From NCBI GenBank assembly GCA_964019135.1, contig OZ025264.1, positions 1,116,001-1,180,000 on the forward strand: DNA of 64,000 nt. The letters run 5' to 3'. Below the pieces are notes generated by a model that did not search any database, had not been told where the DNA came from, and was given only the letters and a program-made list of their open reading frames with translations. A program made the translations under genes and the position numbers. The stretch's first letter is position 1, and every line of letters begins with the position of its first letter. Shown here piece after piece: positions 367-56,370 of this stretch. The stretch comes from Arenicola marina. Lineage: Eukaryota; Annelida; Polychaeta; Arenicolidae.

Positions 367-377
367 TCCCCCTTCTT
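367..377 (-). other. Polypurine tract of the gypsy element
   Basis: On the minus strand a purine run (AAGAAGGGGGA) ends directly at the first base of the 3' LTR. This is the expected place for the plus-strand primer. Confidence 0.8.
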
Positions 378-558
378 GTAAAAAAAAGTTATACACTTTA
401 GTCAACAGCTTTGAAGTTAACTAGCATTAATGCAGGACTCGGAGTATGACACAAATTAAGCGGTATGAGTCTGTGTTCGATGATATATCCTGTCAATAAT
501 GGCAAACTATATATATATATCCAATATTCAAAATAATTTCAACATTAGAGTCAATGAG

Positions 559-4612: not shown

Positions 4613-4719
4613 GGCGATTAGCAGTTTAGGCAGGCGGTAAGTTGTATGATTGTTTCACACATTCACCTTTGCAAGCACTAACGAATTGTCCATTTGCTAC
4701 ATATTATGCGGTTCGCTTT

Positions 4720-4732
4720 ACCGCTGCCACCA
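4720..4732 (-). other. Primer binding site (tRNA-Leu type)
   Basis: Directly after the 5' LTR, the minus strand reads TGGTGGCAGCGGT. This complements a tRNA 3' end ACCGCTGCCACCA, as found in tRNA-Leu (AAG/TAG class). The match is from memory of metazoan tRNA-Leu sequences. Confidence 0.75.
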
Positions 4733-5006
4733 TGTTGTAGCCTGGCCCGGATACGTGTCAATGAGACGAGCGAGATATCAGGTAGATTCCATTGAGGTTT
4801 TATTTCACCTTGTTACATTCGTACATTACGACTGCCAAGTACCGATGTTAAGAGACGACTGGCAAGTGACGACTGCCCGTCGCACACAGTGACCGCGAGT
4901 GTACAGTTCCGAAAATAGGCCACTGCTCAAACTACTACTCATAGCACGGTGCTCATTGTGGTTCTACCTAATGGTTAACACTGGGTCGGGATCCAAATCT
5001 ATGACA
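4733..5006 (-). repeat. 5' LTR of the gypsy element
   Basis: Direct repeat of 92-366, one base shorter, with three visible differences in all. It is followed outward by the CGTTC target duplication. Confidence 0.95.
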
Positions 5007-29975: not shown

Positions 29976-30110
29976 CTTGAATGACCGTGCAGTCGGCTTT
30001 CAGGCGACTTTAACCGGGAGACTTTGGTCGCCGTTTCCACATTGGTATGCCTGCGTCCGGAGCCGTGGACTTGTGGGTCCACAACCTGTGAAACGTCGCA
30101 TACGACTAAA
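29976..30110 (-). promoter_or_regulatory. ACADM: Presumed ACADM 5' UTR and promoter
   Basis: Directly upstream of the ACADM ATG. GC-rich, with no TATA box seen. It contains a quasi-palindrome GTGGACTTGTGGGTCCAC (30064-30081) within a block that reappears inverted at about 50900-50945. The promoter is therefore squeezed between the start codon and the satellite arm. Function inferred from position only. Confidence 0.45.
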
Positions 30111-30149
30111 AATAGACTAATTAAAGAAAACAGCAATGTATGCCACGAA

Positions 30150-33100
30150 TCACACAAGCCCACACCACAACGGGCTCCGGGCTGTAGTTTCTTTATTAAT
30201 TCACATATTATATCAAATGAGGTGTCAGACTAAAGGTCTACATCCCGACAAGACCAGTACATGTTTTAAAATATAAGGAGACATCATTTACATGGCTAAA
30301 TTAGTTGGCGAAGTGGGTCCCTGTCGGGCACTGGCCTGAAATATACGGCCCCAAGCCCACGCCGTGACGCTCAGCTAAGGCTTGTGGTCCCAATGTCCAC
30401 AACGGGCTCCGGGCTGTGGTTTCTTTATTAATTCACATATTATATCAAATGAGGTGTCAGACTAAAGGTCTACATCCCGACAAGACCAGTACATCTTTTA
30501 AAATATAAGGAGACATCATTTACATGGCTAAATTAGTTGGCGAAGTGGGTCCCTGTCGGGCACTGGCCTGAAATATACGGTATCTAGTCAACTCGACCCA
30601 AAACCAACTCGACCCACGACATGCTCGACCCATCACCGTTCCAAGCCCACGCAGTGACACTCATTTTAGGCTTGTGGATCCAATGTCCACAACGGGCTCC
30701 GGGCTGTAGTTTCGTTATTAATTCACATATTATATCAAATGAGGTGTCAGACGAAAGGTCTACATCCCGACAAGACCAGTACATCTTTTAAAATATAAGG
30801 AGACATCATTTACATGGCTAAATTACATGGCGAAGTGGGTCCCTGTCGGGCACTGGCCTGAAATATACGGCCCCAAGCCCACGCCGTGACGCTTAGCTAA
30901 GCCTTGTGGACCCAATGTCCACAATGGGCTCCGGGCTGTAGTTTCGTTATTAATTCACATATTATATCAAATGAGGTGTCAGACGAAAGGTCTACATCCC
31001 GACAAGACCAGTACATCTTTTAAAATATAAGGAGACATCATTTACATGGCTAAATTACATGGCGAAGTGGGTCCCTGTCGGGCACTGGCCTGAAATATAC
31101 GGCCCCAAGCCCATGCCGTGACGCTCAGCTAAGGCTTGTGGCCCCAATGTCCACAACGGGCTCCGGGCTGTGGTTTCTTTATTAATTCACATATTATATC
31201 AAATGAGGTGTCAGACTAAAGGTCTACATCCCGACAAGACCAGTACATCTTTTAAAATATAAGGAGACATCATTTACATGGATAAATTAGTTGGCGAAGT
31301 GGGTCCCTGTCGGGCACTGGCCTGAAATATACGGCCCCAAGCCCATGCCGTGACGCTCAGCTAAGGCTTGTGGACCCAATGTCCACAACGGGCTCCGGGC
31401 TGTGGTTTCTTTATTAATTCACATATTATATCAAATGACGTGTCAGACTAAAGGTCTACATCCCGACAAGACCAGTACATCTTTTAAAATATAAGGAGAC
31501 ATCATTTACATGGCTAAATTAGTTGGCGAAGTGGGTCCCTGTCGGGCACTGGCCTGAAATATACGGCCCCAAGCCCATGCCGTGACGCTCAGCTAAGGCT
31601 TGTGGACCCAATGTCCACAACGGGCTCCGGGCTGTGGTTTCTTTATTAATTCACATATTATATCAAATGAGGTGTCAGACTAAAGGTCTACATCCCGACA
31701 AGACCAGTACATCTTTTAAAATATAAGGAGACATCATTTACATGGATAAATTAGTTGGCGAAGTGGGTCCCTGTCGGGCACTGGCCTGAAATATACGGCC
31801 CCAAGCCCATGCCGTGACGCTCAGCTAAGGCTTGTGGACCCAATGTCCACAACGGGCTCCGGGCTGTGGTTTCTTTATTAATTCACATATTATATCAAAT
31901 GAGGTGTCAGACGAAAGGTCTACATCCCGACAAGACCAGTACATGTTTTAAAATATAAGGAGACATCATTTACATGGCTAAATTAGTTGGCGAAGTGGGT
32001 CCCTGTCGGGCACTGGCCTGAAATATACGGTATCTAGTCAACTCGACCCAAAACCAACTCGACCCACGACATGCTCGACCCATCACCGTTCCAAGCCCAC
32101 GCAGTGACACTCATTTTAGGCTTGTGGATCCAATGTCCACAACGGGCTCCGGGCTGTAGTTTCGTTATTAATTCACATATTATATCAAATGAGGTGTCAG
32201 ACGAAAGGTCTACATCCCGACAAGACCAGTACATCTTTTAAAATATAAGGAGACATCGTTTACATGGCTAAATTACATGGCGAAGTGGGGTCCCTGTCGG
32301 GCACTGGCCTGAAATATACGGCCCCAAGCCCACGCCGTGACGCTCAGCTAAGGCTTGTGGACCCAATGTCCACAACGGGCTCCGGGCTGTAGTTTCGTTA
32401 TTAATTCACATATTATATCAAATGAGGTGTCAGACGAAAGGTCTACATCCCGACAAGACCAGTACATGTTTTAAAATATAAGGAGACATCATTTACATGG
32501 CTAAATTACATGGCGAAGTGGGTCCCTGTCGGGCACTGGCCTGAAATATACGGCCCCAAGCCCATGCCGTGACGCTCAGCTAAGGCTTGTGGACCCCATG
32601 TCCACAACGGGCTCCGGGCTGTGGTTTCTTTATTAATTCACATATTATATCAAATGAGGTGTCAGATTAAAGGTCTACATCCCGACAAGACCAGTACATC
32701 TTTTAAAATATAAGGAGACATCATTTACATGGATAAATTAGTTGGCGAAGTGGGTCCCTGTCGGGCACTGGCCTGAAATATACGGCCCCAAGCCCATGCC
32801 GTGACGCTCAGCTAAGGCTTGTGGACCCAATGTCCACAACGGGCTCCGGGCTGTGGTTTCTTTATTAATTCACATATTATATCAAATGAGGTGTCAGACT
32901 AAAGGTCTACATCCCGACAAGACCAGTACATCTTTTAAAATATAAGGAGACATCATTTACATGGCTAAATTACATGGCGAAGTGGGTCCCTGTCGGGCAC
33001 TGGCCTGAAATATACGGCCCCAAGCCCACGCCGTGACGCTTAGCTAAGCCTTGTGGACCCAATGTCCACAATGGGCTCCGGGCTGTAGTTTCGTTATTAA

Positions 33101-36020
33101 TTCACATATTATATCAAATGAGGTGTCAGACGAAAGGTCTACATCCCGACAAGACCAGTACATCTTTTAAAATATAAGGAGACATCATTTACATGGCTAA
33201 ATTACATGGCGAAGTGGGTCCCTGTCGGGCACTGGCCTGAAATATACGGCCCCAAGCCCATGCCGTGACGCTCAGCTAAGGCTTGTGGCCCCAATGTCCA
33301 CAACGGGCTCCGGGCTGTGGTTTCTTTATTAATTCACATATTATATCAAATGAGGTGTCAGACTAAAGGTCTACATCCCGACAAGACCAGTACATCTTTT
33401 AAAATATAAGGAGACATCATTTACATGGATAAATTAGTTGGCGAAGTGGGTCCCTGTCGGGCACTGGCCTGAAATATACGGCCCCAAGCCCATGCCGTGA
33501 CGCTCAGCTAAGGCTTGTGGACCCAATGTCCACAACGGGCTCCGGGCTGTGGTTTCTTTATTAATTCACATATTATATCAAATGACGTGTCAGACTAAAG
33601 GTCTACATCCCGACAAGACCAGTACATCTTTTAAAATATAAGGAGACATCATTTACATGGCTAAATTAGTTGGCGAAGTGGGTCCCTGTCGGGCACTGGC
33701 CTGAAATATACGGCCCCAAGCCCATGCCGTGACGCTCAGCTAAGGCTTGTGGACCCAATGTCCACAACGGGCTCCGGGCTGTGGTTTCTTTATTAATTCA
33801 CATATTATATCAAATGAGGTGTCAGACTAAAGGTCTACATCCCGACAAGACCAGTACATCTTTTAAAATATAAGGAGACATCATTTACATGGATAAATTA
33901 GTTGGCGAACTGGGTCCCTGTCGGGCACTGGCCTGAAATATACGGCCCCAAGCCCATGCCGTGACGCTCAGCTAAGGCTTGTGGACCCAATGTCCACAAC
34001 GGGCTCCGGGCTGTGGTTTCTTTATTAATTCACATATTATATCAAATGAGGTGTCAGACGAAAGGTCTACATCCCGACAAGACCAGTACATGTTTTAAAA
34101 TATAAGGAGACATCATTTACATGGCTAAATTAGTTGGCGAAGTGGGTCCCTGTCGGGCACTGGCCTGAAATATACGGTATCTAGTCAACTCGACCCAAAA
34201 CCAACTCGACCCACGACATGCTCGACCCATCACCGTTCCAAGCCCACGCAGTGACACTCATTTTAGGCTTGTGGATCCAATGTCCACAACGGGCTCCGGG
34301 CTGTAGTTTCGTTATTAATTCACATATTATATCAAATGAGGTGTCAGACGAAAGGTCTACATCCCGACAAGACCAGTACATCTTTTAAAATATAAGGAGA
34401 CATCATTTACATGGCTAAATTACATGGCGAAGTGGGTCCTTGTCGGGCACTGGCCTGAAATATACGGCCCCAAGCCCACGCCGTGACGCTCAGCTAAGGC
34501 TTGTGGACCCAATGTCCACAACGGGCTCCGGGCTGTAGTTTCGTTATTAATTCACATATTATATCAAATGAGGTGTCAGACGAAAGGTCTACATCCCGAC
34601 AAGACCAGTACATGTTTTAAAATATAAGGAGACATCATTTACATGGCTAAATTACATGGCGAAGTGGGTCCCTGTCGGGCACTGGCCTGAAATATACGGC
34701 CCCAAGCCCATGCCGTGACGCTCAGCTAAGGCTTGTGGACCCCATGTCCACATGGGCTCCGGGCTGTGGTTTCTTTATTAATTCACATATTATATCAAAT
34801 GAGGTGTCAGACTAAAGGTCTACATCCCGACAAGACCAGTACATCTTTTAAAATATAAGGAGACATCATTTACATGGATAAATTAGTTGGCGAAGTGGGT
34901 CCCTGTCGGGCACTGGCCTGAAATATACGGCCCCAAGCCCATGCCGTGACGCTCAGCTAAGGCTTGTGGACCCAATGTCCACAACGGGCTCCGGGCTGTG
35001 GTTTCTTTATTAATTCACATATTATATCAAATGAGGTGTCAGACTAAAGGTCTACATCCCGACAAGACCAGTACATCTTTTAAAATATAAGGAGACATCA
35101 TTTACATGGCTAAATTAGTTGGCGAAGTGGGTCCCTGTCGGGCACTGGCCTGAAATATACGGTATCTAGTCAACTCGACCCAAAACCAACTCGACCCACG
35201 ACATGCTCGACCCATCACCGTTCCAAGCCCACGCAGTGACACTCATTTTAGACTTGTGGACCCAATGTCCACAACGGGCTCCGGGCTGGGATTTCTTTAT
35301 TAATTCACATATTATATCAAATGAGGTGTCAGACGAAAGGTCTACATCCCGACAAGACCAGTACATCTTTTAAAATATAAGGAGACATCATTTACATGGC
35401 TAAATTAGTTGGCGAAGTGGGTCCCTGTCGGGCACAGGCCTGAAATATACGGCCCCAAGCCCACGCCGTGACGCTCAGCTAAGGCTTGTGGACCCAATGT
35501 CCACAACGGGCTCCGGGCTGTGGTTTCTTTATTAATTCACATATTGTATCAAATGAGGTGTCAGACGAAAGGTCTACATCCCGACAAGACCAGTACATCT
35601 TTTAAAATATAAGGAGACATCATTTACATGCCAGATTAGTTGGAGAAATGGGGCCCTGTCGGGCGCTGGCCTGAAATATACGGTATCTAGTCAACTCGAC
35701 CCAAAACCAACTCGACCCACGACATGCTCGACCCATCACCGTTCCAAGCCCACGCAGTGACACTCAGTTTAGGCTTGTGGACCCAATGTCCACAACGGGC
35801 TCCGGGCTGTGGTTTCTTTATTAATTCACATATTATATCACATGAGGTGTCATACGAAAGGTCTACGTACCGACAAGAGAGTTACATCTTTAAAGACATA
35901 AGGAGACATCGTTTACATGGCCAAATTAGTTCGCGAAGTGGGTCCCTGTCGGGCACTGGCCTGAAATATACGGCCCCAAGCCCACGTCGTGATACTCAGC
36001 TCAGGCTTGTGGACCCAATG
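30150..36020 (+). repeat. Left-arm satellite array, units of about 232 and 290 bp
   Basis: About 25 units marked by CCACAACGGGCTCCGGGCTG. Most are 231-232 bp. Five (near 30584, 32034, 34181, 35166 and 35690) are about 290 bp because of an extra roughly 58-bp cassette with three CTCGACCCA motifs. Each unit has a perfect hairpin TTGTGGAC-CCAAT-GTCCACAA. The 66-codon frames on the minus strand recur only because the unit does. The inverted counterpart is 47270-50760. Confidence 0.97.
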
Positions 36021-36021
36021 T

Positions 36022-36165
36022 CCACAACGGGCACACTAGTATGCCATGTCTTCCTAAAGATACCCAATCGCACACACTAGTATGCCATGTCTTCTTAAAG
36101 ATACCCATAAGCACACACTAGTATGTAATGTCTTCATAAAGTTAGCCATACGCACATATTAGTAT
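36022..36165. repeat. About 52-bp tandem repeat
   Basis: Three to four copies of CACACTAGTATGCCATGTCT followed by TCYTAAAGATACCCATA. Related motifs recur at 36720-36890. Confidence 0.8.
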
Positions 36166-36464
36166 GCCAGTTTGTTCTACTAGGCCAGCCAAATCAGGCG
36201 GTGCGTGGTGCGAATCCCGCCTGTGAATATTTCAATGTGTGTGTTTAGTATAATACGTTCCTATGCGTTTCTTCGAAAACACTATGGCGTCATGCAGAAG
36301 AGCCAGCCATATCTCCTCTTTTCCATCCAGTACTCAAATTCCTTTTAAAGGTTGCCATATACACATTTAGGATGACATCTGTCCGACGGTGAGACTAGAT
36401 TTCAGCTTTGTTTTGGTTTAAGTTCTAAGGTGTGTTTTGCGGCGTTTGCGCTTAATTATGAGAG

Positions 36465-37395
36465 AATAAGCCTGTCACCGACAGAGCTTACCGCGGTCGT
36501 CGCATCGATGACTTTTCGTTAGGGTTTGGTTTGTTCTCACTGTACACCGATAGACTATGGATTGGCGTTTTAAGTCCAGTTTCTCAAACCAGAGACCGTC
36601 ATGGTTGGCCATTCCATGACGCACAACACGTGCCAACCCCTCTTTTGGGATGCTAGATCCTCACAAGAATTCGAATCGTTGTCGAAAGCCTTGCAAACCT
36701 TGTCATGCTTGCAAACATACACACATACTAGTACGCAGTCTTGCTGCGTGTAGCCATGCACACACTTATACTCAAAGTATTCCTGCTTGTAGTCATACAC
36801 ACACACTAATACTCAAAATCCACACACACTAATACTCAAAGTCTTCCTGCATGTAGCCATACACACACGGGGGTACGCAAACTCCTCATAAAGGTAGCCA
36901 TGAAATGTGCATCTCTAGGGGATTGTGGTCTGCATTAAAGCGCGGACTGTGCATCTCGGGAGGGTTGTGGTCGGCATTAGACACGGGCTGTGCATCTGTG
37001 GAGGTTTGCGGTCTGCACTAGACACAAAATATGTACCGCATGGCAGGCGTGGGGTGATTACATTGCAAATATAATCAATTACGATTATAAGAAATACAAA
37101 AGTAATCGATAACGATTTCGATGACATTGAGTGTAAACACGATTACACTCATGTTTGCAAGCGTGGCATGATCGAGGACTTTCGGCATCGATTCGGATTC
37201 TTGGGAGGCTCTGCATGGCATCCCGGGTGAGGGGGTGGGCACGTATCGTGTGTGAAGGAATGGCCCACCACGACGGGCTCTGGTTTGAGAAACTGGACTT
37301 GAAACGCCAACCTAGGCACCCACCGGAGACTACAAACCAATCCCTAACGACAAGTCACCGATGCGACGACTTCTGGTAAGCTTTGTCGGTCACAT
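36465..37395. mobile_element. Foldback-like element with arms of about 240 bp
   Basis: 36465-36716 and the reverse complement of 37150-37395 are strongly alike: GTCACCGACARAGCTTACC at the ends, TTTCTCAAACCAGAG and TTGGCCATTCC inside. The spacer (36717-37149) holds CACACACTAATACTCAAA repeats, a 46-bp tandem repeat (36905-37025) and an AT-rich GTAATCG stretch. The long arms and lack of coding suggest a non-autonomous TIR or foldback transposon. It abuts the LTR at 37396. Confidence 0.75.
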
Positions 37396-38238
37396 TGTCA
37401 CGTTCGTCTAGGGGTAATTTATTACGTATAAATAAAACAATGGACAAAATGAGGACGAAAGAAGGCAAAAAATTCTTCTTTCTTTTCCCCTCTTTCTTTC
37501 TCTTTCTCGTCATACATGGCAGCTAGTATTCTTTCGTAAAAGTCCCGCTTCTCTCAGCATTCACAGCTATAATTAAACAATATGAACAAGCCATAATCAT
37601 TGGTCAAGGTATATGCACATACATTGGTGGCAATACATGTTTGAACTTATGAAATATAAACAAATAAGTACTCTTAAGACACTTACGTGAACATTCACCA
37701 TTTCCGTTACCATATCTGGCTTCCAGCACACATCATCTTCTAGCAGCACGACAGCTTGTCACCTTGGCACACAGCCGCACAATATACAAAACCTGGCACA
37801 CAGCCTCACAATATCATGGCACACAGCCTCACAATATCATGGCACACAGCCTAACAATATCATGGCACACAGCCTCACAATATCATGGCGCACAGCAGCG
37901 TGATATAATGGCACACAGCCTAACAAAGCGCTGGCACACAGCGTAACAACGCGCTGACACACAGCCTCACCACAGTAACCTCATCTCTCATCTGTTTATC
38001 TCTTTACTGCGGTTCAATATATACCGGCTACTGCCACTCCCATCTCTACTACAATTAACCAAGGACACTAAAATTAACTCGTACACAGTCACGCAATTAG
38101 ACCTTCCCAGATGCTGACATCTAGAACGCTGAGACAACTTGATTACTTGGCCAACTTTGGCACTCCTTCACACAGATGAAACTGACATAGACATCGATAA
38201 CTCAAAACCCTAAATCGAAAAACCCTGAATCCGTGACA
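37396..38238 (-). repeat. 3' LTR of a Gmr1-like gypsy element
   Basis: About 843 bp, reading TGTCACGGATTC...GAACGTGACA on the minus strand, next to a polypurine tract (CTTAAGAGGGGAGTAT, 38239-38254). It contains an internal 21-23-bp tandem repeat (CACACAGCCTCACAATATCATGG, 37783-37975). Confidence 0.85.
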
Positions 38239-40106
38239 ATACTCCCCTCTTAAGAAAATATCACTGCATATTTTACCAACAACGGGTTTCCAAAACTATG
38301 TACAAATATTACGCACACAAGACACATCTATTCATGCATACGACTAAGATAATCAGCGATAACATTGTCTTTGCCCTTAATGGCACGAATCTGATCTTTG
38401 TAGTTCTGGAAAAACATCGGCCATCTCCTAATACGACTATTAGAGACTTTGCATTTGTCAATGTACACTAAGGGTTGACGATCAGTTTCTAAGACGAACT
38501 CCTTTCCATATAGGTAAGTTTGAAAACGTTTAATGGCCCAAACTAAGGCCAAACATTTGCGTTCTATGACTGAATAAAAAAATTTTCGGGCAATGAGTTT
38601 AAACCATTTGACAATTTCCTCACTAATCTGTTAAAGGATGCAGTTGCATTGATCATTCCAAATGACATCTTACAAAACTGGTACAAGCCATCTGATGTAA
38701 CAAAAGCTGTCATTTGCTTCGAACCTTCTTCCATAGGAATCTTTTCTTTGTTTATCAGTCAAATCAGGATTTATTACCACATCTCTATAAGTCTATTTTC
38801 CTTTTACATCCGGTAAGTCTACGAGATTATCATCTTTAACATCTTCACCACATTCAATTATCGCGGTAGCAGCAAACTCTGTTGTAGTTACATCAGATGG
38901 TTTGTTATACAGTCTCAACATATTCGCATGAAACGTCTTCGTTTTATCATTGATTCTGATTTGATAGTCATTCAGAGCTACACATCGCTCTACCAAATAT
39001 GGTCCTTTCCACTGAAGTAACAACTTATTGTTTGAAGTTGGCAGCAATACTAAAACATGATCACCTATTTTGAAGGGTTTTTTCTTTGCTCCACGATCGT
39101 ATTGTCGTTTTTGTCGCACTCTGGCTTCAGTCAACTCGCGATGAGCTAGTTTACATGTATCTTCAAGTCGAGTTTTCAGATCTAGGACATACTAATAAGT
39201 AGTTTTCACATCGTCACATTCAACATCTTTAGTCCACAGTTGTTTTAATATCTGCATAGGGCCACGCACAGTTCAGTCATACAACATTTCAAATGGGGAA
39301 AATCCTAGGCTTTCCTGAGTAGCTTCACGATAAGCAAACGAGAACGTCAAGCGTAGAAGGAGACGAAAATCTGGGGATAAGTGCAATTGGAATATATATA
39401 GCGAGTGCCGACTATGTACATGCATTGCTGACAGAGTATATGCCGAAATGCCCGCGCGCCGTGAGTCATTTGGCGTATCGAAGCTTTATAATGGGATCGG
39501 CCATGTTAAATGTCTTTGTTTTTTTGCGTGCAAAGCACTGGTCTGATTTGAATGGTATTTGGCACACATGATGTCAGTAATATTGGTACCTATTCCACGA
39601 CATACGGGAAGTCTATCTGCATATATGTAGGCACAGCGATTTTTCTCCATTTTTATTCGGGTCAAATTTAACCATCCAATAGCTCAAAAGCTATAAATGT
39701 GAGGTGAAATCTGGGACACATTTCTTTCGTGCCTCTCTCAGAAGAATACTTTGAGAGAAACCGCGGATCTCTAGAGCCGATATTAACGGAGCTACAAAGA
39801 AAAACATGATTCGTGACCTTGACCTTATTGTGACCTTGACCTTGGAAGCGTGACCTTGATCAATATAGTGCTTTGGCCCAAATACTAATGTCATGTCTCA
39901 CGCAAAGTGTCGGTTGTCTGACATGTTCCCTTCATGGAGAAATTGGGGAGGCCATTTTCCCGCCAAAATGCTCCCGTAGGGTCCCATGTTAAACTTTGGG
40001 AATTTTTAGCGGGAAAACTATTTGGGCGATTTGCATAAATGAAAGACCATATAGAAGGTACTAATGGGCTCAATACGAGAAATAATTTGCAGCGTGATTA
40101 AATGGA

Positions 40107-40292
40107 ATGGAATGTTGGTGTTTTAGGCCACTTTTGTGTACATACAGGCTAAATTGGGCCAAGGAACCTCCCGAGACGATGAAGGATGAAGGAATGAAAC
40201 ATGCCCCAGATTAGGTGCCCGAGCCCGGATTCGAACCCAGGACCTATTGATCTGCGGTCTAGTGCGCTAACCACTACACCAGGGAGGCCCCC
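40107..40292 (-). mobile_element. tRNA-derived SINE with 12-bp target duplication
   Basis: The minus-strand head GGTGTAGTGGTTAGCGC (A box) and GGTTCGAATCC (B box), then a body ending AAAAGTGGCCTAAAACACCA. Flanked by TGATTAAATGGA at 40095-40106 and 40293-40304. Confidence 0.92.
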
Positions 40293-40766
40293 TGATTAAA
40301 TGGAAACTGCGAACGTTACAGCGATTCCGTTTTTTGGTCCTATCTTTCAATGGTTAAGAGAAGTTTGAAAAATTCCTGTGACCTTGACCTTTGACCTACA
40401 TTGCCCATCTACAAATTTAGCCTGACGGTGGGCCGTGGCATTGTCTGTGCAGAAGGCGGAGTCGATATCTCAAACTTTATAAAAAAAAAAAAAAATCTAA
40501 CATTTTCAATTTTCAAGAGGCTGTGGCGCGAAAACTGTTTATCCTATGTCAAAATGGCAATATTAAGAGAGCTAGAGCGGAAAATGTGTTTTGGACGTAT
40601 CATCGTGACCTTGACCTTTGAGTTATATTGCCCATTCACGAACTTGACCTGTCGATTGGCTGTCGGAATGTTTTGGTAAAAGAAGAGAACGATATCTTTA
40701 GGCATTTGACAGATAATGCGTCTACAGACAGACAGACAGACAGACAAACCGAACACACCGACATTA

Positions 40767-40838
40767 AAAATCTACGATTTTCGTCTTAACAAACCGAACA
40801 CACCGACATAAGACGAAAATCGTAGATTTTCGTCTTAA
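40767..40838. repeat. Nested palindrome
   Basis: AAATCTACGATTTTCGTCTTA is mirrored by TAAGACGAAAATCGTAGATTT. The second half is itself a palindrome (AAGACGAAAATC-GTA-GATTTTCGTCTT). Confidence 0.9.
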
Positions 40839-43699
40839 CAAAACTGCTGGCAATTATCTGTCCCAATCCTTGGGTTTTTCGTTACAAAGACGCTTTAAAA
40901 TCTGCTTCATGGTACCGTTAAATCTTTCAATCAATCCATTACAAATGGGATGGTAAGAAGTTGTAGTAAGCTGTTTGATAGAGACTAATCTGCAAATTTC
41001 TCTCATCAAGTCTGATGTAAACTGAGAACCTAAGTCACTGAGCACTTCGTCAGGAAAACCAACTCTGCTGTATATCCTCAAAAGTGCCTCGGCAACAGTC
41101 TCCGTATCAATTTTCTTCAAGAGAACAGATTCAGGGTACCTGGTGGCATAATCTATGACAGTCAAGGTATATCGGTGACCTCTGTCAGATGAAGGTTAAA
41201 TAGGACCAACAAAGTCGACAGCACCACGTTTGAATGGTCTGTCAATCAATGGAAGTTGAACCAGAGAAGCTTTACCAGATTTGCCTTTGGGAATAGTGCA
41301 TTGACAAATGTCGCAGGATCGACAGAATCGCGTGACGTCACCATGTACATTTGGCCAGTAGAATTGAGTTAATATCTTATCACTGGTCTTCCTGATGCCT
41401 AAATGACCACCAATGAGTGATTCATGAGCCAAAGCGAGAACCTGAGGACGATACGAACTGGGAACTACCAACTGTCTTATCGCGTCGCGACCTGGTTCAA
41501 TGACCTTGTAAAGAAGGCCCTTCCGAATTTTAAAGGCAGAAGTATTCGAGTTGTTAATTTTGGGTGGATCGTCGGCGTGAGCCATTAACCACAATTTAGA
41601 AAGAGACTTCAGAGGGCATCAATCAGAGATTCAACAGTGACGTTGTCGCCTACACCGTCAGGAACACGTAATGGTTGCGGTACGTCACATTGTCGTTTTG
41701 TCTGACTCCTAGTTACAATGGTATTAGCAATTTTTGCTGGATTTTGATTTTGCACCATCAATATTTCCAATAATTAGATCATAGATTGGGTTCTGCGTGC
41801 ACAAAGCTTCATCTTCTCCAGAGTAGAATGGGGTATTTACTTGAACCTTAGCAACTGGGTATTTTCGCATAGTGCCGTCAATTAGTAAACACATGTGATC
41901 CTTGCCCGTAAGCTGCTCTGGTTTCACTAAGCTGGAGCGTACAGCAACTCCGCTACATCCTGTGTCACGCAAGGTATTTACTAAAGTGCCACCAATCAGA
42001 CCCTTTCTAACAGGCATTCCCATGGAATCAGCGCTTGTTTCTGAACAATCTCCACTTACAATTGGGAGATATTTGCCATTAGCTACTTTTCAACTCAGAT
42101 ACTCTCATTACGCAACAACCAGCGGTTTCTACGTTAGCATTCTCAAGGGCATTATCTGACATCGACAAGTCAGCACCACTAGTGTCTACGGTATTCGTCA
42201 ACATCATTGCACCCGCTCTTTGTTTAACATCTGGAGTTTTGGAGTTGCGACATTATCTTGCTATATGACCTGTTTTGTCACAAAGGAAACATCGTCGTCT
42301 ATCAATAGGGGAGGGAGCAAAGTTATTTGTCTGTTTCCGATCTTCATATATAGTTACATTACTGCGACATCGGTCTGCGACATGTCCGATTCGCTTGCAC
42401 TTATAACAACATTTGTCTGTCCCGTTATTCTGCATGTCTCTGTCACGGGTCACCACGCGCGTTTTCTTACCGTCTAATGTACAACCGTGAATATACAAGT
42501 AGCGCTCAGCATATTCTTCGACAGAGTCACTAGAATGAGGATCTTTCTCACGAATGTATGTGCGCAAATCAAGACTGCAACATCGAAGAAATTGTTCTCT
42601 ACTGAAGAGATCACTCAGTTCGTGGTACGTCATCTTAATATCTGATAACCCACCTGGTCGAATTACTGCGGAGTCGAGCCATCTGTTCACTCGGTGTCAG
42701 TCCTGGTTCAACATTAGTGTCAAAAAACTTTCTTCTTTCTTTTGTTCTGTACCCGTCTTTGGTCAACAGATATCTGTGTAGTAAAGCGCTTTAACTTTAT
42801 CATAATCGCTGGCGTCTTCTATTGACATCCTGAAGTAGGTTTCCAAAGCCCGTCCAGTAAGTAGTGCACTAAGAGCAGTTGCCCAGTCGTCCGTATGCCA
42901 TTCCTGAGAATTAGCAAACCTTTCAAATCGATTCCATTATGCGTCAATATTGTCTTTACCGTCTTGAAATGTTGGTAACTTAGGGACCGGAACATGTGAT
43001 GAGTTGTACTATCTTTACAAATACTTTCTGTTTCGGCGTCTTTCTTAACCTTTTCTAATTCAGTCTCTTTTTCGAGTTTAGTTACTTCAAACTCTCGTTT
43101 CATACGCCTCTCATCTCGTTCTATCTCCAAGTCCCATCTACGAGTTTCCAACCTTTCTTTCTTTTCATTTTCCACGAAGTCTTTTACCTCTTAATCGGCA
43201 TAACCTAAGTCATTGCCAAGCCCCATTAACTCTTTCAACTCTACGTTATCCATTTCCACAACTTGACAAATAAGAATCTATGAATGAATAATTAACATTA
43301 TCACGTGAACTGGTGTCGGGGTGTCGTTTGAGGGAATAAACTGGATTATCGATCTCAGTCAAAGACATTATGTAGATTTCACTCACCCAACAAGATATAT
43401 AAAGACCACCTGCTTCGGTCCACTGCTTGATATTCCACAACACGCCTCCAATCTGACAACATGACAAGGACACTCCACGTGTGGTTCCGTATATAAATTA
43501 TTGACACTCCAAGTGATAAGCAGCTGAAACATCTGAGCACAAGTTTAAACATAAATCGACCATGGTGGTACAATTGACACGTTTGACGTAAATTATTGGC
43601 TTAGTATAATCATACGGGAAAAATAAGCCAACCGCAATACATATGCGCAAGGAAGGAGTTATACAATCAGCTACACATTTTAGATATATCCCGGACGAG

Positions 43700-44309
43700 C
43701 CCCGACTTTTTCGAGTTATGGTTTTGAGTTATCGATGTCTATGTCAGTTTCATCTGTGTGAAGGAGTGCCAAAATTGGCCAAGTTGTGTGAGCGTTCTAG
43801 ATGTCAGCATCTGGGAAGGTCTAATTGCGTGACTGTGTACGAGTTAATTTTAGTGTCTGGTTAATTGCAGTAGAGATGGGAGTGGCAGTAGTCGTGTGCC
43901 ATGATATTGTGAGGCTGTGTGCCATGATATTGTGAGGCTCTGTGCCACGATATTGTGAGGCTGTGTGCCATGATATTGTGAGGCTATGTGTCATGATATT
44001 GTGAGGCTGTGTGCCATGATATTGTGAGGCTGTGTGCCATTATAAGTTCAAACATGTATTGCCACCAATGTATGTGTGTATACCTTGACCAATAATTATG
44101 ACTTGTTTATATTGTTTAATTATAGCTGTGAATGCTGAGAGAAGCGGACTTTTACGAAAGAATAATAGCTGCCATGTATGATGAGAACGAGAAAGAAAGA
44201 GGGGGAAAGAAAGAAGAATTTTATTGTATTATGTAAACACAATATTTCGCCCTCATTTTGCCCATTGTTTTATTTATACGTTTTCAATTAGTCCTAGACG
44301 AACGTGACA
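43700..44309 (+). repeat. LTR of the Gmr1-like family, inverted relative to 37396-38238
   Basis: The plus strand here (GTTTTGAGTTATCGATGTC ... GACGAACGTGACA) matches the minus strand of 37396-38238. It includes the internal 23-bp repeat (GTGTGCCATGATATTGTGAGGCT, about seven copies, 43893-44043). The outer end is intact; the inner end is truncated. Confidence 0.85.
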
Positions 44310-47269
44310 GATAGGCGAGACTTATTTAGTCATAAGCGCAAATACCGCGACGCAAATCGTATCACTTAAACCAAACAAAGCTGCAAATCCATCATCTTTC
44401 GCAGACGGACGGATGCTAATCATATTTCCCATGGTTTAAACCTTAAAGTAACTATTTCAACAACAAGTTAATATTGGACGAATTTGGCGAGAACGGTATC
44501 ATGAGTTCAGAAGCAAGCGATTCCAGTACCAGCAGTTTGTATGAAGCCTGGGTAAAAGCCGATTTCTGATCGTAATGTTATGCGTTCAATTCCTGAGGGG
44601 CAAAGGATGTTATGGCATTTACTGATGGCTGCAACCCTTCTTCAGGCTGAAGACTGTGTCTTCTCCACGGTACTCATTTTGTGAAGAGAATTCCGCGGTC
44701 GTGATCAAATATGCAAATTATGATTAGATAGTTATAAAATAAACTCTACCTGGTTCAAGAGTAGGGTGCGGCAACGTATGGTATATCCATACAGTCATGT
44801 AGCATTGCCTCTTTCTTTATTACCAATCATTTAACATAGAGGCCATAAGTGACTATTGCCCACCACTCCGCCCTCTCTGACATGACGATAATGCTAAATG
44901 CAGCGTATTAATTTGTATTATAAGGATATTTGTGTATTTTATGTTAAACCATTTAAACAATATGTAAACCAGCAAACTGGCGGGGTCGCCAGGGGTCGCC
45001 TGAACTAATCTATACTAATAATCCATAATATGGGGAAGACGCATTTTCAGCCATCAGTAAATGTAAAAAAAAAACAATCGGGGGTAATGCACAACCCCGC
45101 GATGAGAAATCCGCCGCTCTCCAGGCTAAGCTTCATACAGACAGCTGATATTTGAATGTATCACAGGGTGAAAATACAAAGAAATTATAACCCGAATAAA
45201 TAAGGTTTCATTCATTAGCTGCCTTCTATATGCATTGTGAGGCCAGTAAGTCGGTGCTGTCAGGTTTAAACATGCCTGCCACAACCTAGTGGGCAGTGAA
45301 ATGCGTGCTTGCAGTTTCGAATACTATATTTTATGTATGACGGCTGGCTGGGTGAACTGCCCACGATAGAAATGGGTCTATGTGTAGTATTTCTGGTCCC
45401 AGGCCCGAATGGACGCCGGTTCTACCCTAGAAAGTTCTAGACGGGTTTCGAACCGGCGACCCATCGCATCCCGAGCGAACACCTTACACGTTAGGCCAAA
45501 GGGAAATTCCCATTTGGCCCGAGGCGCTTGGTGTCTTTTATCCACCGGGCCTGGGCCGAGATATCACATATGCTCGTCTAGCTCCGGATGACCGGCGCCC
45601 AGCATATAAACAGGGCGGGTGGCTTGAGACACACTCAGACACACACAGATGGAGAGACACAACTTGCAGACTTATCCACACCACAGCCCGTGTCTGCTGG
45701 AGTCTGGACACTGGGATAGGACTCATTCACCGACCATGGCCAACATCGCATGCCCCATGTGTTGATGAAAGGATAAACGGAAACTGCTGGCAAAAGCAGC
45801 TGCGTTATGATCTGTTGACTGTCTAACCTCTAAACAAGGCCGGTTATAAATCGCCCGGCTTCTGAAATTATTGATTAAAATCGAATTTATTTATTTAGAT
45901 TATCCGTATAATAATATAATCATGATTGTAATTGTGACTACTTTCAAAATAATAGTAGGCGGCCTATGTAATTGCAATCTATTAAGATATTCGTAATGAA
46001 TCGATTACTTCTATTTGCCTGTAATCGTAATCGTAATTATGAAATTTCCAAGTAATTAATCGCATCGCATTCGATTACATTTACAATGTAGGCTATATCA
46101 CCCCATACCTCCCGCTCACTCTTCACTGTCCTGGGGTGCTAATTATTGTGGATATACATTAGTAGAAGTGTAAGTGGGTATTAGTTGGTTGCTTATCAAA
46201 AAAATTTAGTAGTGGCGGCTGGGGATAACACAAAGCAATGATGCATAAATAGGCCTACAGCCAGCTTTGTGGGCTTTTCTCATCGCTCTCCACCTCCTCC
46301 CCGTCACCCCGATGGTGTCGTACTATTTTACACCATTGGTGACAGCTTTATCTTCTTTAGTTTCATCGGCATGCAGGGCGCGAGACGAACCCGGAGTATC
46401 CCGCCCTCTCCCCATCCCAGATACCAACCTGCGGCCACCCGGTTTTTCGTTGAATGCCAGGCGCGATTTCAAGGCCAATATTTGAATCGCGCGCCCAATT
46501 TCCTGCAGGGATCCTTGTTACGAAAGTAGCCCAGGGAATGAATACCGGGGTGCAGTGCGACAAACTTGTGACATTAAGCCATGGATAGATAGCTCCACCT
46601 CAGACCAGGGTGCTCCCGGAGCATGGGAAGGGGCGGTGCGTGCGCTAACCGCTTGTGAGGGGAACCCAACATACGGGAGGCATGCCGAGCAAAGGCCCAG
46701 AGCAAAGATACTGTCACCTTTGACCGCGATACGTCGCGCAACTGCACAACTGCTGGTGAACGCTGAAATTGGCGGCCACGACTTGGCGCAGGAAGTCCCG
46801 GGCGGGAATCTGCCGTGCTCGGCCCGAGATATCCAGTAGATACCAAGGATCGTGTAAAACTATCCTTGTTGATACCAAACTATCGGTGCAATGTGACGGG
46901 ACGCCTGCTGGGCGTGCGCTTGTCACCAACTTAACTAGGAAGGGGGGGGGGGGGTGTAGGGGTCGGGCAAGGGGTATTTCCGTTCCTCGGAAATGCGCTT
47001 TTCATTTCACCGTGAACTGGAAATGCAGAAAATAATTGTTCGTGAACCGGGAATGGGATATTATCCGATCATCATGGATTTTCATTAATCGTGAACTGAG
47101 ATTCTCAAGGATAAATAGCCGTGAATTGGAAAATCGCCAATTTATATCATGTATCCACCCTTCACATAATATGCCGGCAGTTTTTCATTTAATTCACCGT
47201 GGTCTGGGAATAAAGGAATTAATTTTTCGCAATCTGGGAAGACTTTTCATCTGACACCTCGTTTGATAT
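44310..47269. other. Right-arm segment, no gene seen
   Basis: The first 110 bp (44310-44420) match the reverse complement of about 36370-36470 in the left arm. The rest has no left-arm counterpart except a GTAATCG-rich stretch (45900-46100, compare 37040-37140). Overlapping short frames at 46270-47035 look compositional. 47000-47230 holds degenerate CGTGAACTGGGAA repeats. Confidence 0.6.
45430..45505 (-). mobile_element. tRNA-like SINE head fragment
   Basis: The minus strand reads TTGGCCTAACGTGTAAGG ... GGTTCGAAACCCGTC, an A-box-like and a good B-box motif at tRNA spacing. No tRNA cloverleaf could be completed. Confidence 0.5.
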
Positions 47270-50200
47270 AATATGTGAAATAATAAAGAAATCACAGCCC
47301 GGAGCCCGCTGTGGACATTGGACATTGAGTCCACAAGGCTAGGCTGAACGTCACGCTGTGGGCTTGGGATCTTATATTGAAAGCCAGTGCCTGGACCGGG
47401 ACCCTGTTCGCCAACTTACTAGACCATGTGAATGAGGTTTCATTTCATTTTTAAAGATGTATATGTCTTGTCGAGACGTAGATCTTTCGTGTGATACCTC
47501 CTTTCATACAATATGGGAATTAATAAAGAAACTACAGCCCGGAGCCCGTTGTGGACATTGGGTCCACAAGCCTTAGCTGAGCGTCACGTCGTGGGCTTGG
47601 GGCCGTATATTTCAGGCCAGTGCCCGACAGGGACCCACTTCGCCAACTAATTTAGCCATGTAAATGATGTCTCCTTATATTTTAAAAGATGTACTGGTCT
47701 TGTCGGGATGTAGACCTTTCGTCTGACACCTCATTTGATATAATATGTGAATTAATAAAGAAACCACAGCCCGGAGCCCGTTGTGGACATTGGGTCCACA
47801 AGCCTTAGCTGAGCGTCACGGCGTGGGCTTAGGGCCGTATATTTCAGGCCAGTGCCCGACAGGGACCCACTTCGATAACTAATTTAGCCATGTAAATGAT
47901 GTCTCCTTATATTTTAAAAGATCTACCTGTCTTGTCGGGATGTAGACCTTTCGTATGACACCTCATGTGATATAATATGTGAATTAATAAAGAAACCACA
48001 GCCCGGAGCCCGTTGTGGACATTGGGTCCACAAGCCTTAGCTGAGCGTTACGGCGTGGGCTTGGGGCCGTATATTTCAGGCCAGTGCCCGACAGGGACCC
48101 ATTTCGCCAACTAATTTTGCCATGTAAATGATGTCTCCTTATATTTTAAAAGATCTACCTGTCTTATCGGGATGTAGACCTTTCGTATGACACCTCATGT
48201 GATATAATATGTGAATTAATAAAGAAACCACAGCCCGGAGCCCGTTGTGGATATTGGGTCCACAAGCCTTAGCTGAGCGTTACGGCGTGGGCTTGGGGCC
48301 GTATATTTCAGGCCAGTGCCCGACAGGGACCCATTTCGCCAACTAATTTTGCCATGTAAATGATGTCTCCTTATATTTTAAAAGATCTACCTGTCTTATC
48401 GGGATGTAGACCTTTCGTATGACACCTCATGTGATATAATATGTGAATTAATAAAGAAACCACAGCCCGGAGGCCGTTGTGGACATTGGGTCCACAAGCC
48501 TTAGCTGAGCGTTACGGCGTGGGCTTGGGGCCGTATATTTCAGGCCAGTGCCCGACAGGGACCCACTTCGCCAACTAATTTAGCCATGTAAATGATGTCT
48601 CCTTATATTTTAAAAGATTTACCTGTCTTGTCGGGATGTAGACCTTTCGTATGACAGCTCATGTGATATAACATGTGAATTAATAAAGAAACCACAGCCC
48701 GGAGCCCGTTGTGGACATTGGGTCCACAAGCCTAAAATGACTGTCACTGCGTGGGCTTGGAACGGTGATGGGTCGAGCATGTCGTGGGTCGAGTTGGTTT
48801 TGGGTCGAGTTGACTAGATACCGTATATTTCAGGCCGGTGCCCGACAGGGACCCACTTCGCCAACTAATTTAGCCATGTAAATGATGTCTCCTTATATAT
48901 TAAAAGATGTACTGGTCTTGTCGGGATGTAGACCTTTCGTATGACACCTCATGTGATATAACATGTGAATTAATAAAGAAACCACAGCCCGGAGCCCGTT
49001 GTGGATATTGGGTCCGCAAGCCTTAGCTGAGCGTTACGGCGTGGGCTTGGGGCCGTATATTTCAGGCCAGTGCCCGACAGGAACACATTTCGCCAACTAA
49101 TTTAGCCATGTAAATGATGTCTCCTTATATTTTAAAAGATGTACTGGTCTTGTCGGGATGTAGACCTTTCGTCTGACACCTCATTTGATATAATATGTGA
49201 ATTAATAAAGAAACCACAGCCCGGAGCCCGTTGTGGACATTGGGTCCACAAGCCTTAGCTGAGCGTTACGGCGTGGGCTTGGGGCCGTATATTTCAGGCC
49301 AGTGCCCGACAGGGACCCATTTCGCCAACTAATTTTGCCATGTAAATGATGTCTCCTTATATTTTAAAAGATCTACCTGTCTTATCGGGATGTAGACCTT
49401 TCGTATGACACCTCATGTGATATAATATGTGAATTAATAAAGAAACCACAGCCCGGAGGCCGTTGTGGACATTGGGTCCACAAGCCTTAGCTGAGCGTTA
49501 CGGCGTGGGCTTGGGGCCGTATATTTCAGGCCAGTGCCCGACAGGGACCCACTTCGCCAACTAATTTAGCCATGTAAATGATGTCTCCTTATATTTTAAA
49601 AGATTTACCTGTCTTGTCGGGATGTAGACCTTTCGTATGACAGCTCATGTGATATAACATGTGAATTAATAAAGAAACCACAGCCCGGAGCCCGTTGTGG
49701 ACATTGGGTCCACAAGCCTAAAATGAGTGTCACTGCGTGGGCTTGGAACGGTGATGGGTCGAGCATGTCGTGGGTCGAGTTGGTTTTGGGTCGAGTTGAC
49801 TAGATACCGTATATTTCAGGCCAGTGCCCGACAGGGACCCACTTCGCCAACTAATTTAGCCATGTAAATGATGTCTCCTTATATTTTAAAAGATGTACTG
49901 GTCTTGTCGGGATGTAGACCTTTCGTATGACACCTCATTTGATATAATATGTGAATTAATAAAGAAACCACAGCCCGGAGCCCGTTGTGGACATTGGGTC
50001 CACAAGCCTTAGCTGAGCGTCACGGCGTGGGCTTTGGGCCGTATATTTCAGGCCAGTGCCCGACAGGGACCCACTTCGATAACTAATTTAGCCATGTAAA
50101 TGATGTCTCCTTATATTTTAAAAGATCTACCTGTCTTGTCGGGATGTAGACCTTTCGTATGACACCTCATGTGATATAAGATGTGAATTAATAAAGAAAC

Positions 50201-50760
50201 CACAGCCCGGAGCCCGTTGTGGACATTGGGTCCACAAGCCTTAGCTGAGCGTCACGGCGTGGGCTTTGGGCCGCATATTTCAAGCCAGTGCCCGACAGGG
50301 ACCCACTTCGCCAACTAATTTAGCCATGTAAATGATGTCTCCTTATATTTTAAAAGATGTACTGGTCTTGTCGGGATGTAGACCTTTCGTATGACACCTC
50401 ATGTGATATAAGATGTGAATTAATAAAGAAACCACAGCCCGGAGCCCGTTGTGGACATTGGGTCCACAAGCCTTAGCTGAGCGTCACGGCGTGGGCTTTG
50501 GGCCGTATATTTCAGGCCAGTGCCCGACAGGGACCCACTTCGCCAATTAATTTTGCCATGTAAATGATGTCTCCTTATATTGTAAAAGATCTACCTGTCT
50601 TGTCGTGATGTAGACCTTTCGTAGGACACCTCATGTGATATAATATGTGAATTAATAAAGAAACCACAGCCCGGAGGCCGTTGTGGACATTGGGTCCACA
50701 AGCCTTAGCTGAGCGTCACGGCGTGGGCTTGGGGCCGTATATTACAGGCCAGTGCCTGAT
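47270..50760 (-). repeat. Right-arm satellite array, inverted
   Basis: About 15 units of the same satellite as 30150-36020, in opposite orientation (CAGCCCGGAGCCCGTTGTGG). Two units (around 48730-48830 and 49715-49810) carry the same cassette with TGGGTCGAG motifs. The unit hairpin is conserved. Confidence 0.97.
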
Positions 50761-52544
50761 AGTCTCCCCCCCCCCCCCCCCCCCAACTGATATACTGTGC
50801 CTGTGGTTGCCCGTCCCTGCATCAAACAGCGGAAAAATGTTTCCGGTGTTAAGTCACAGTTGGTCGTGTGCGACGTTTAGGGGCGCCCCCTGCCGTCGGA
50901 GACTGCTTGTGGACCCACAAGTCCACGGCTCCGGACGCAGTATTACCCAGCTCGCCGTTTCAGTCACCAAGACGTCAGCACTCCAGTTAGTATATATAAC
51001 AGGAACACGGTCTAAGCACCGTGGTTAGCACCGGCGCTGTGCGCATGCTCCGTCGCACGTTCCCTGCTGCCTGGCTGCTGCCTGGCTCCCTGTTAGAGCC
51101 AAGTGCACACATTTTCTGCTGTTGTATGTAATCACATGCCAGTTTCATAGATTAATCATCCCTTTTTGGGCGGTAAATCGTGAATCGTGTCTGTTTATCA
51201 AGCTCATATGTATTGAGGTCGATGACCATGGCATGGGGCGGCCAAATTAATTGGCATTTTGAAGGTGGGGGGGGGGGGGGGGGGCGGCGGTCATGATCCA
51301 GTGAATGTACATTTTCCTTAAAAAGAAGAATTTTTTTTGAGATTTGTAAGCCCATATAAATCATAATGCCGTTAGCTACCATTGAAAATGTAAAATTTTA
51401 ATGTCTGAGAAAGGGATTTTTAAATACTAGAGGCTACTATAAATAAGGCACTGCTGTATCAGCGGTGATAAAGCAAACCGTCAAATGTGTCCTTTATATT
51501 CTGGGACACCATTGAACTTCAGCGCAAGTGCCCCCAGTATTTGGTAGGGTCTAGGAAAAAGTCAGATGCTCCAACATTTGTTTGCAAAAATATGACTGCA
51601 ACAATCTAGTGTTGACACACTTTCTTGACATCAGAAGATAGAACAAGGTATATAGAATACGTAAGTACTATTATTGTACGCACCCACATTATAATAAAAG
51701 CTACAGTTGATTCCCTACTAACGTCGAAGGATTTTAACATTGTTACCATTGTGTCCCTAGAGAAGCGGGCTTGCCTGGGGGCACTTGCGCCAACATTGAA
51801 CTCTGTCACAGCACTGCTATATACTTATAAGTATTATTACAAGTATCGCAAAGTGCAAGAACTGATGACTTTTAACATTAAGTTGAAAACCTGTAGTTAA
51901 TTGGTATCACAGGCAATGTTAAGATACTCCATTTGGCAGTATGGCATGCATGGAATATGGACAAAAGACATTATTTATATTATTTATGATTTATGAAAAA
52001 ATATCAATAATTCTTCTGAAAATGGGATGTTCACCACCGAGCATGGGTTGACATGTATATGTTCTCTGAAAAAAAGGATGATTGATGACTTTATGGGGTA
52101 CTGACCATAGAATATCCAGTATTTTTTCTTGCAGCTTACAGATGATGCATAAAACACAATACAGCAAGTTGGATACGAAATACAAAGCAGATCTGGAGAA
52201 GATTTTTACATTAATTTTTATGACACAGTTGATTTACAAAGTTTCAATTTTTAGTGTGCAGTAGACATGTGATCAATGAGATATGAATAAGAGCTGATTT
52301 TGTATCATTGTCATGCATAATAGAATAAAAACATTACAAACATGGGAAATGCTTTGTCACTTTTTTTGTAGAAGTCCTGCAAATAAAGTTTCTTTTGGCC
52401 TAGCCTAGCACATCGCATTGTTTGATAATAAATATTTAATTTGCTACAATTAATCTACACACTACCGACATAAAACAGTTTTGACTGAATTGGGTGCTTT
52501 CTGATTTAAAAAAAAATGGCTGTATATAAAATTGGTGTAATTTG
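50761..52544. other. Outer edge of right arm, then unannotated DNA
   Basis: 50870-50945 carries the quasi-palindromic block (TGTGGACCCACAAGTCCAC, GGCTCCGGACGCAG) shared inverted with 30045-30100. A C-run (50766-50783) and a G-run (51267-51285) follow. GCGCAAGTGCCCCCAG at 51521 is repeated inverted at 51775. A possible acceptor and short frame at 52134-52263 are not convincing. Confidence 0.5.
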
Positions 52545-55500: not shown

Positions 55501-56370
55501 ACCGGGCGTGGTTTGACGCTAAAAGGCTAGCACCGCGCGTGGTTTGACGCTAAAAGCCTAGAACCGGGCGTGCTTTGATACTAAAAGCCTAGAACCGGGC
55601 GTGGTTTGACGCTAAAGGCTAGCACCGGGCGTGGTTTGATGCTAAAAGCCTAGCACCGGGCGTGGTTTGATACTAAAAGCCTAGCACCGGGCATGGTTTG
55701 ATGCTAAAAGCCTAGCACCGGGCGTGGTTTGACGATAAAAGGCTAGCACCGGGCGTGGTTTGACGCTAAAAGCCTAGAACCGGGCGTGTTTTGATACTAA
55801 AAGCCTAGAACCGGGCGTGGTTTGACGCTAAAAGGCTAGCACCGGGCGTGGTTTGACGCTAAAAGCCTAGCACCGGGCGTGGTTTGACGATAAAAGCCTA
55901 GCACCGGGCGTGGTTTGATGCTAAAAGCCTAGCACCGGGCATGGTTTGATGCTAAAAGGCTAGCACCGGGCGTGGTTTGATGCTGAAAGCCGAGAACCGG
56001 GCGTGCTTTGATACTAAAAACCTAGAACCGGGCGTGGTTTGACGCTAAAAGGCTAGCACCGGGCATGGTTTGATACTAAAAGCCTAGCACCGGGCATGGT
56101 TTGATACTAAAAGCCTAGCACCGGGCATGGTTTGACGATAAAAGCCTAGCACCGGGCGTGGTTTGATGCTAAAAGCCTAGCACCGGGCATGATTTAATGC
56201 TACGAGGCTAGCAGCGGGCGTGGTTGGATACTGAAAGCCTGGCACCGGGCGTGGTTTGACTCTAAAAGCCTAGAACCGGGCGTGGTTTGACGCTAAAAGC
56301 CTAGCACCGGGCGTGGTTTGATGCTAAAAGCCTAGCACCGGGCGTTATTGGATGCTAAAAGCCTGGCGAC
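52545..56370. repeat. 3.8-kb tandem array A, 31-bp unit
   Basis: About 120 copies of GCACCGGGCGTGGTTTGATG followed by CTAAAAGCCTA, with many point variants (CATGATTTAATG, GACGATAAAAG). A higher-order block of about 405 bp, marked by GGTTGGATACTGAAAGCC, recurs at about 53065, 53470 and 53875, and again near 56225. Confidence 0.97.

Follow-up and report, generated by a model that had tools for sequence, protein, structure and literature searches.

The stretch of DNA analysed here (the window) comprises 64,000 nt of the genome of the polychaete Arenicola marina (contig OZ025264.1, positions 1,116,001 to 1,180,000; C19:1116001-1180000 in the numbering used below), taken from an assembly of 867 Mb and 762 contigs (GCA_964019135.1). 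Its middle part contains a mirrored structure of 20.9 kb, considered here as a mobile element, in which an edge block, a satellite, a short inner segment and a long terminal repeat (LTR) occur twice, in opposed order. An earlier reading of the letters alone (the sequence-only reading) had pointed to these four mirrored features, and self-comparison of the window confirmed all of them, essentially where they had been placed. The borders of the element lie at positions 30038 and 50953, and the same 8-mer, GCCGTTTC, flanks both sides (left copy at 30030-30037, right copy at 50954-50961). The left outer block (30038-30164, plus strand) consists of the tip 5′-CACATTGGTATGC (30038-30050), a 34-bp core (30051-30084) and unique sequence. 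The right outer block (50763-50953, minus strand) starts with a different tip, 5′-GAGCTGGGTAATA (50953-50941), followed by the same core, identical over its 34 bp (50940-50907), and has a G/C run at its end. Inward of these blocks, a satellite with a period of 232 bp runs in opposed orientations, from 30165 to about 36031 on the plus strand and from 47240 to 50762 on the minus strand. A 34-base probe, allowing up to three mismatches, detected 24 units in the left array and 12 in the right one, and the strongest inverted alignments between the two arms showed 88–96% identity. The short inner segment (36398-36454, plus strand, an LTR flank) matches 44389-44333 in inverted orientation, with 79% identity over 58 positions; the LTR at 37396-38222 similarly matches 44309-43707 (77–78%). 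The left arm also contains a 41-bp tandem repeat (36032-36169) and a nested insert (approximately 36462-37395) with inverted ends of its own (36473-36718 and 37151-37394, 78% identical), while an interior segment conserved among copies (44390-47239) is restricted to the right side. Comparison of the window with Rfam gave no matches at the gathering threshold.

The sequence-only reading had proposed a genome search with both edges as a check. These searches returned at least 41 matches to the left edge and at least 41 to the right edge (40 candidates were scored in each, so that the counts are lower bounds), and many of the strong matches pair as opposed ends. The 34-bp core, with up to three mismatches, had 51 matches genome-wide (27 forward and 24 reverse), while its reversed control had none. 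Within 30 kb of one another, the cores formed 16 pairs, all 16 of them convergent and spaced by 10.0–28.5 kb; random placement would be expected to give about 0.09 such pairs. The census and the convergent pairing exclude chance. Two more pairs appeared when the limit was widened to 70 kb; one of them (40.6 kb) is convergent, the other is not. For 16 of the 51 cores there was no neighbouring core within 70 kb; among these, a more degenerate partner was found for at least five (at C8:44.06, C9:2.98, C11:27.56, C1:11.74 and C12:35.40 Mb). In all, 24 intervals including the window were tallied, and ten of the other 23 were fetched, so that 11 copies could be read; C9:2.95–2.98, C1:76.03–76.06, C12:35.40–35.46, C1:11.74–11.79 and C20:25.25–25.29 Mb are among those outside this set. 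The ends of this family are of the type CACATTGG...CCCAGCTC with the 34-bp core. All ten fetched copies share one arrangement, in which the interior lies between two 232-bp satellite arrays of opposed orientation and an outer block closes each end, and long inverted arms with tandem repeats were present in 11 of 11 copies. When the window interior (36032-47240) was compared with the fetched copies, the aligned pieces were mostly 95–99% identical, a few being 92–95% identical, with some interior stretches extra, missing or duplicated in some copies. The elements mostly measure 16–28 kb. Mean divergence between copies in six interior segments ranged from 0.85 to 1.86%, with a maximum of 4.1% (n = 11 for five segments and n = 9 for one, from which two copies with less than 85% coverage were omitted).

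The 8-mers flanking the element were identical in seven of the 11 copies, including that in the window, and differed by one mismatch in copy L029. In copy L039 the 8-bp flanks were present but displaced by three bases, as judged by eye; for L037, the right tip was taken from the edge-block search and flank comparison. In control comparisons of flanks across copies (n = 110), the best had two mismatches. Sites without the element were found as well. A 440-bp query made of the window flanks joined through a single GCCGTTTC matched C19:1005280-1005671 continuously, with 100% identity as rounded; the match covers query positions 50-440 (391 bp), the genomic place being one base longer. A second empty site at C19:1302336-1302528 (99% identity) covers query positions 50-242 and extends 22 bases beyond the junction. 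In our reading, the flank is locally duplicated on C19 and both places are paralogous empty sites; an unmerged haplotype would give the same picture, and under either reading a site lacking the element exists. Since the target-site duplication and the empty site bracket the whole structure, the 20.9 kb entered as one unit, and recently. The low divergence among copies, together with the empty site, likewise indicates recent activity of the family. A short palindrome lies just outside the left end of the window element (29798-29872). The stretch 29818-29873 recurs widely (the joined-flank query gave 1065 first-look candidates, of which the best 40 or so were scored), and it is thus a dispersed short repeat. 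Motifs resembling CACAGGCACAGTATATCAGT, several with a G run, were seen at 50763-50810 in the window, within the right outer block, in the flanks of copies L033 and L041, and at the ends of the loci L050 and L051.

Of the three possibilities raised by the sequence-only reading, that of one giant element with terminal inverted repeats (TIRs) is borne out by the opposed end pairs at many places, the 8-bp target duplication and the empty site. The second, two opposed copies of a smaller composite (an LTR element plus satellite) that came to lie head to head by chance, would account for mirrored parts that resemble two half-elements and for arms that differ in length and content. However, the same pair with the same interior is present in ten other fetched copies, and the entire 20.9 kb is flanked by the target-site duplication and lacking from the empty site; this explanation is therefore hardly tenable. 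The third, an old inverted duplication, was weighed together with a palindrome produced by the assembly, neither being a mobile element; both fit the inverted arms of 3.5–5.9 kb with 88–96% identity. Yet the copies are scattered over many contigs and their flanks differ, and this, with the 8-bp duplications and the empty sites, makes either origin extremely unlikely.

Positions 30038-50953 of the window thus very likely hold, in complete form, a giant DNA transposon of the foldback type that is non-autonomous and moves by cut-and-paste. Some observations weigh against this reading or against parts of the mechanism proposed below. The two ends do not resemble each other over their outermost 13 bases, an unusual trait in a TIR element. 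The flanks do not match in two of the 11 copies (L033, with three mismatches, and L041, with five). No transposase was recognized in the interior pieces scanned (16 queries covering 14 distinct pieces, in some frames). The predicted hairpin of the core was no better than those of shuffled sequences. Finally, the mean identity among 264 satellite units was 93.5% within the same arm, 92.2% between opposite arms of a copy and 92.9% between different copies; opposite arms of a copy are not more alike than units of different copies, and ongoing conversion between arms has thus left no sign here.

The interior of the element contains the broken remains of a retrotransposon, with its coding pieces on the minus strand. 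Its 3′ LTR (37396-38238) is normal, with TGTCAC...GTGACA ends and an adjoining purine tract, both recognized by eye. Next to it lie remnants of RNase H and reverse transcriptase (RT) (38331-38758), the RVT_1 piece of the window falling under the Pfam cut-off. These are followed by a broken integrase remnant with an H2C2 zinc finger and an rve core (40857-41618), a protease-like piece (41727-42089; seen by eye only, as Pfam gave no match) and a gag remnant with a zinc knuckle (42256-42696). Read in the sense of transcription, the order is gag, protease-like piece, integrase, RT and RNase H; copy L031/L032 shows this same order, with fuller RT and RNase H frames in L032. About 1.7 kb separates the integrase core from the next pol frame in the window copy, including a stretch (39454-40792) of which parts recur in L050 with 70–91% identity. 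Within it, 39454-40427 was found twice on C6 (L050:538-2577, 77–91%), indicating that it is a dispersed insert. An integrase ahead of RT is a mark of the Gmr1 clade of gypsy elements (PMC8220671), which the passenger resembles in this gene order and in its zinc-knuckle gag; the passenger differs in that its frames are broken and its upstream LTR is inverted. Judged from its sequence, the passenger is a broken gypsy-type retrotransposon with a Gmr1-like gene order. Where a 5′ LTR would be expected, there is instead an inverted, plus-strand LTR copy (43707-44309), and the short stretch beyond it (44333-44389, minus strand) repeats the left flank in inverted orientation. The mirrored LTR pair is present as the sequence-only reading had it, but it derives from the retrotransposon passenger. 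Reverse transcription does not ordinarily yield an inverted upstream LTR together with an inverted flank copy, and we infer that both arose by copying between the arms, from the flank into the LTR.

Of about 150 integrase matches listed, 41 were checked. Twenty-three of the 41 are located inside tallied intervals (22 of the 24), another six are no more than 27 kb away from an unpaired end and one is at a distance of 30 kb from an end. The remaining 11 are near no known end; they are 85–94% identical, with frames of 205–1033 aa, three of them with internal stops. This indicates that the retrotransposon family also exists independently, and that it is a passenger here. Judged from match positions, 19 of the 22 intervals have the integrase in the sense opposed to that of the left end; the sense is the same in two (C1:76031612-76060193 and C1:11738857-11789436) and ambiguous in one, which has left-type matches at both ends; the two C1 intervals could reflect arm-to-arm inversion. 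That the element is moved by this interior gypsy-type integrase, as a Ginger-like or retro-derived DNA transposon, was also considered, given that the H2C2/rve integrase is the sole DNA-integrating enzyme recognized in the pieces scanned and is found in 22 of the 24 intervals. Yet the frames are broken in the window copy, where the following pol frame is set off from the integrase core by the 1.7 kb mentioned above. The RT, RNase H, LTR and purine tract alongside it make up an ordinary retrotransposon, relatives of which occur away from known ends. Further, the ends of the element are not LTR-like, and gypsy-type integrases usually duplicate 4–6 bp of the target, less than the 8 bp found here. 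Taken together, this makes an integrase-driven element very unlikely.

Several loci depart from the common arrangement. A shorter subgroup of about 10 kb (C1:33501861-33512545, C11:27782684-27792704 and C11:27740213) has an integrase only 82–84% identical, and in two of the three the right core carries the same three changes, which suggests an older split already bearing the passenger. At C20:25250994-25291627 (40.6 kb), a left-type block is matched at both ends. In L052:301-984 (C5:13583711-13584394), a right-type outer block is fused directly to a left-type one in the same direction (92.5% and 90% identical to those of the window); it is a fused or recombined product. The L051 interval (C4:46230573-46233700), of about 3 kb, has degenerate outer blocks and little satellite, and is possibly a deletion derivative.

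The satellite arms vary in length. Across copies, the 34-base probe detected 9–24 units in the left arm and 4–12 in the right one; the left arm was the richer in all 11 copies, and no probed unit was wrongly oriented. With a second satellite probe, L031 showed a tie (8 and 8 units). When the core was aligned to the satellite unit in inverted orientation, the scores were 34 and 37, above the maxima of 29 and 25 obtained with 500 mononucleotide shuffles each; in direct orientation the scores (18 and 19) were within those of the shuffles. The satellite unit and the outer block thus probably have a common origin. Genome-wide, the satellite probe had 962 matches (control, 0), of which 258 lie in the 11 copies read, about 23 per copy; at that rate, some 40 copies would account for all 962. 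All of the 100 satellite positions listed, of the 962, fall inside tallied intervals, and no large free satellite arrays were seen among them. Judging from these 100 positions, the satellite appears to have spread largely by transposition.

As no transposase was recognized in the interior pieces scanned, the element is probably mobilized in trans, most likely through a transposase of the cut-and-paste kind that cuts with a stagger of 8 bp. The genome-wide searches for transposase families covered the P-type and MULE families. The P-type domain PF21787 gave 43 matches, none in the 24 intervals (which were read in part), and PF12017 gave four, on C3 and C8, outside the intervals by position. The MULE domain PF10551 gave 103 matches (among the best 150 of 197 candidates), none in the 24 intervals. 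The length of the target-site duplication, 8 bp, would be compatible with the hAT superfamily. A P/THAP lead came from C6, where two divergent ends (C6:3024846-3083473, L049 and L050; 71–82% identity) lie 58.6 kb apart and a THAP exon sits about 5 kb inside the left one. It was rejected as evidence on the superfamily. The exon belongs to a repeat dispersed through the genome, with 2391 first-look candidates, of which 150 were scored; by eye, no matching flanking 8-mers were found for this pair of ends, and its interior was mostly unlike the family in the two pieces read. Merlin elements have a terminal 5′-GG and target-site duplications of 8–9 bp (PMC8101967); the ends described here begin with CA and GA. 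Helitrons have neither target-site duplication nor TIRs, while this family has an 8-bp duplication and paired opposed ends. Polinton/Maverick elements make 6-bp duplications and encode their own DNA polymerase B; here the duplication is of 8 bp, and no such domain was seen in the 14 distinct interior pieces scanned, in some frames. Nor is the element as a whole an LTR retrotransposon, which would have direct LTRs at its borders, these being opposed outer blocks.

The closest known elements are the foldback elements, a structural group rather than one lineage, and above all Tetris; the element described here is unusually large and young. Foldback-type elements have tandem repeats in their arms and target-site duplications of 8–10 bp, and the family shows the former in 11 of 11 copies and an exact 8-bp duplication in seven of 11. 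Such elements also have arms that self-anneal after denaturation, as the opposed arms seen here would be predicted to do. In Drosophila Foldback (FB) and sea-urchin TU elements, inverted arms of tandem repeats surround a variable middle, with unit lengths and sizes that differ from those of the window family. The COX1 of the genome examined showed only 72% identity (standard code) to an echinoid-type COX1, and a sea-urchin host is therefore improbable. The claim of the sequence-only reading that no described element has this layout was too strong, as Foldback, Galileo and Tetris have related layouts. FB and TU are named alongside Tetris in the report on the latter (PMC4079207). The TIRs of Tetris, from Drosophila virilis, enclose a variable middle and are composed of an outer flanking domain, tandem repeats of about 220 bp and an inner domain; Tetris makes 8–10 bp target-site duplications and is apparently non-autonomous, its transposase not having been found; and a 37-bp stretch is common to the outer domain and the tandem unit, for which a shared origin was proposed (PMC4079207). 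The window element resembles Tetris, in structure, in the domain layout, the size of the duplication and a motif common to outer block and unit. Unlike Tetris, with TIRs of up to 1,735 bp and a non-coding middle (PMC4079207), it has arms of about 3.5–6 kb in the window, the elements are mostly 16–28 kb long, a retrotransposon sits in the middle and the motif in common has inverted orientation. In Galileo, of the P superfamily in Drosophila, the TIRs are long and repetitive inside and are not the same at both ends; one subfamily has tandem units of about 210 bp, the tandem repeats contain secondary transposase binding sites, and there are chimeric copies without a target-site duplication (PMC3573991). 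Galileo is like the window family in the repeat-bearing arms of unequal ends and in some copies without matching duplications, and unlike it in making 7-bp duplications, in having TIRs of about 1.2 kb and in encoding a P-type transposase in its fuller copies (PMC3573991), no match to a P-type domain having been found in the 24 intervals tallied. No element of such size combining satellite arms and a retrotransposon passenger was found in titles and abstract openings, a search that left out preprints and most subscription journals.

In the mechanism we propose, a transposase supplied in trans would act on the outer blocks. The satellite arrays would probably have begun as a duplicated piece of an outer block, each unit carrying an inverted relative of the core motif, and may serve as additional putative binding sites. 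Unequal exchange would make the arrays grow and shrink, giving arms of variable length. The gypsy-type retrotransposon with its Gmr1-like gene order would have inserted into an ancestral element, and its broken remains would have travelled with the family as a passenger ever since. An inverted copy of the opposite side would have replaced its upstream LTR together with the adjoining flank, most simply through arm-to-arm conversion or hairpin-templated repair. A bolder version holds that the transposase recognizes its ends in a way unlike that of the described TIR superfamilies, through the subterminal 34-bp core, with the satellite arms as selected arrays of putative binding sites. We regard this as a rather unlikely, speculative extension, kept alive mainly because the outer 13 bases of the ends are unlike. 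If true, the satellite would be growing and spreading as a functional component of a mobile element rather than as a by-product.

As its target duplications and the empty site show, this 21-kb structure, its long inverted arrays of satellite included, has moved as one unit, and recently. The family offers a second, larger system for the idea, put forward for Tetris, that foldback arms seed satellite DNA, and also one in which to ask whether tandem arm repeats are transposase binding sites. Its opposed satellite arms are in addition candidates for causing inversions.

Elsewhere in the window, a minus-strand gypsy-type element occupies positions 92-5006, with direct repeats (92-366 and 4733-5006) that are 98.9% identical and frames of 772 and 637 aa; a decayed relative lies 12–15 kb further on (16539-18787). 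Four more tandem arrays were found near the transposon, at 9634-14671 (22-bp units), 22610-25636 (41/57-bp), 52541-56364 (31-bp) and 56648-58115 (31/126-bp).

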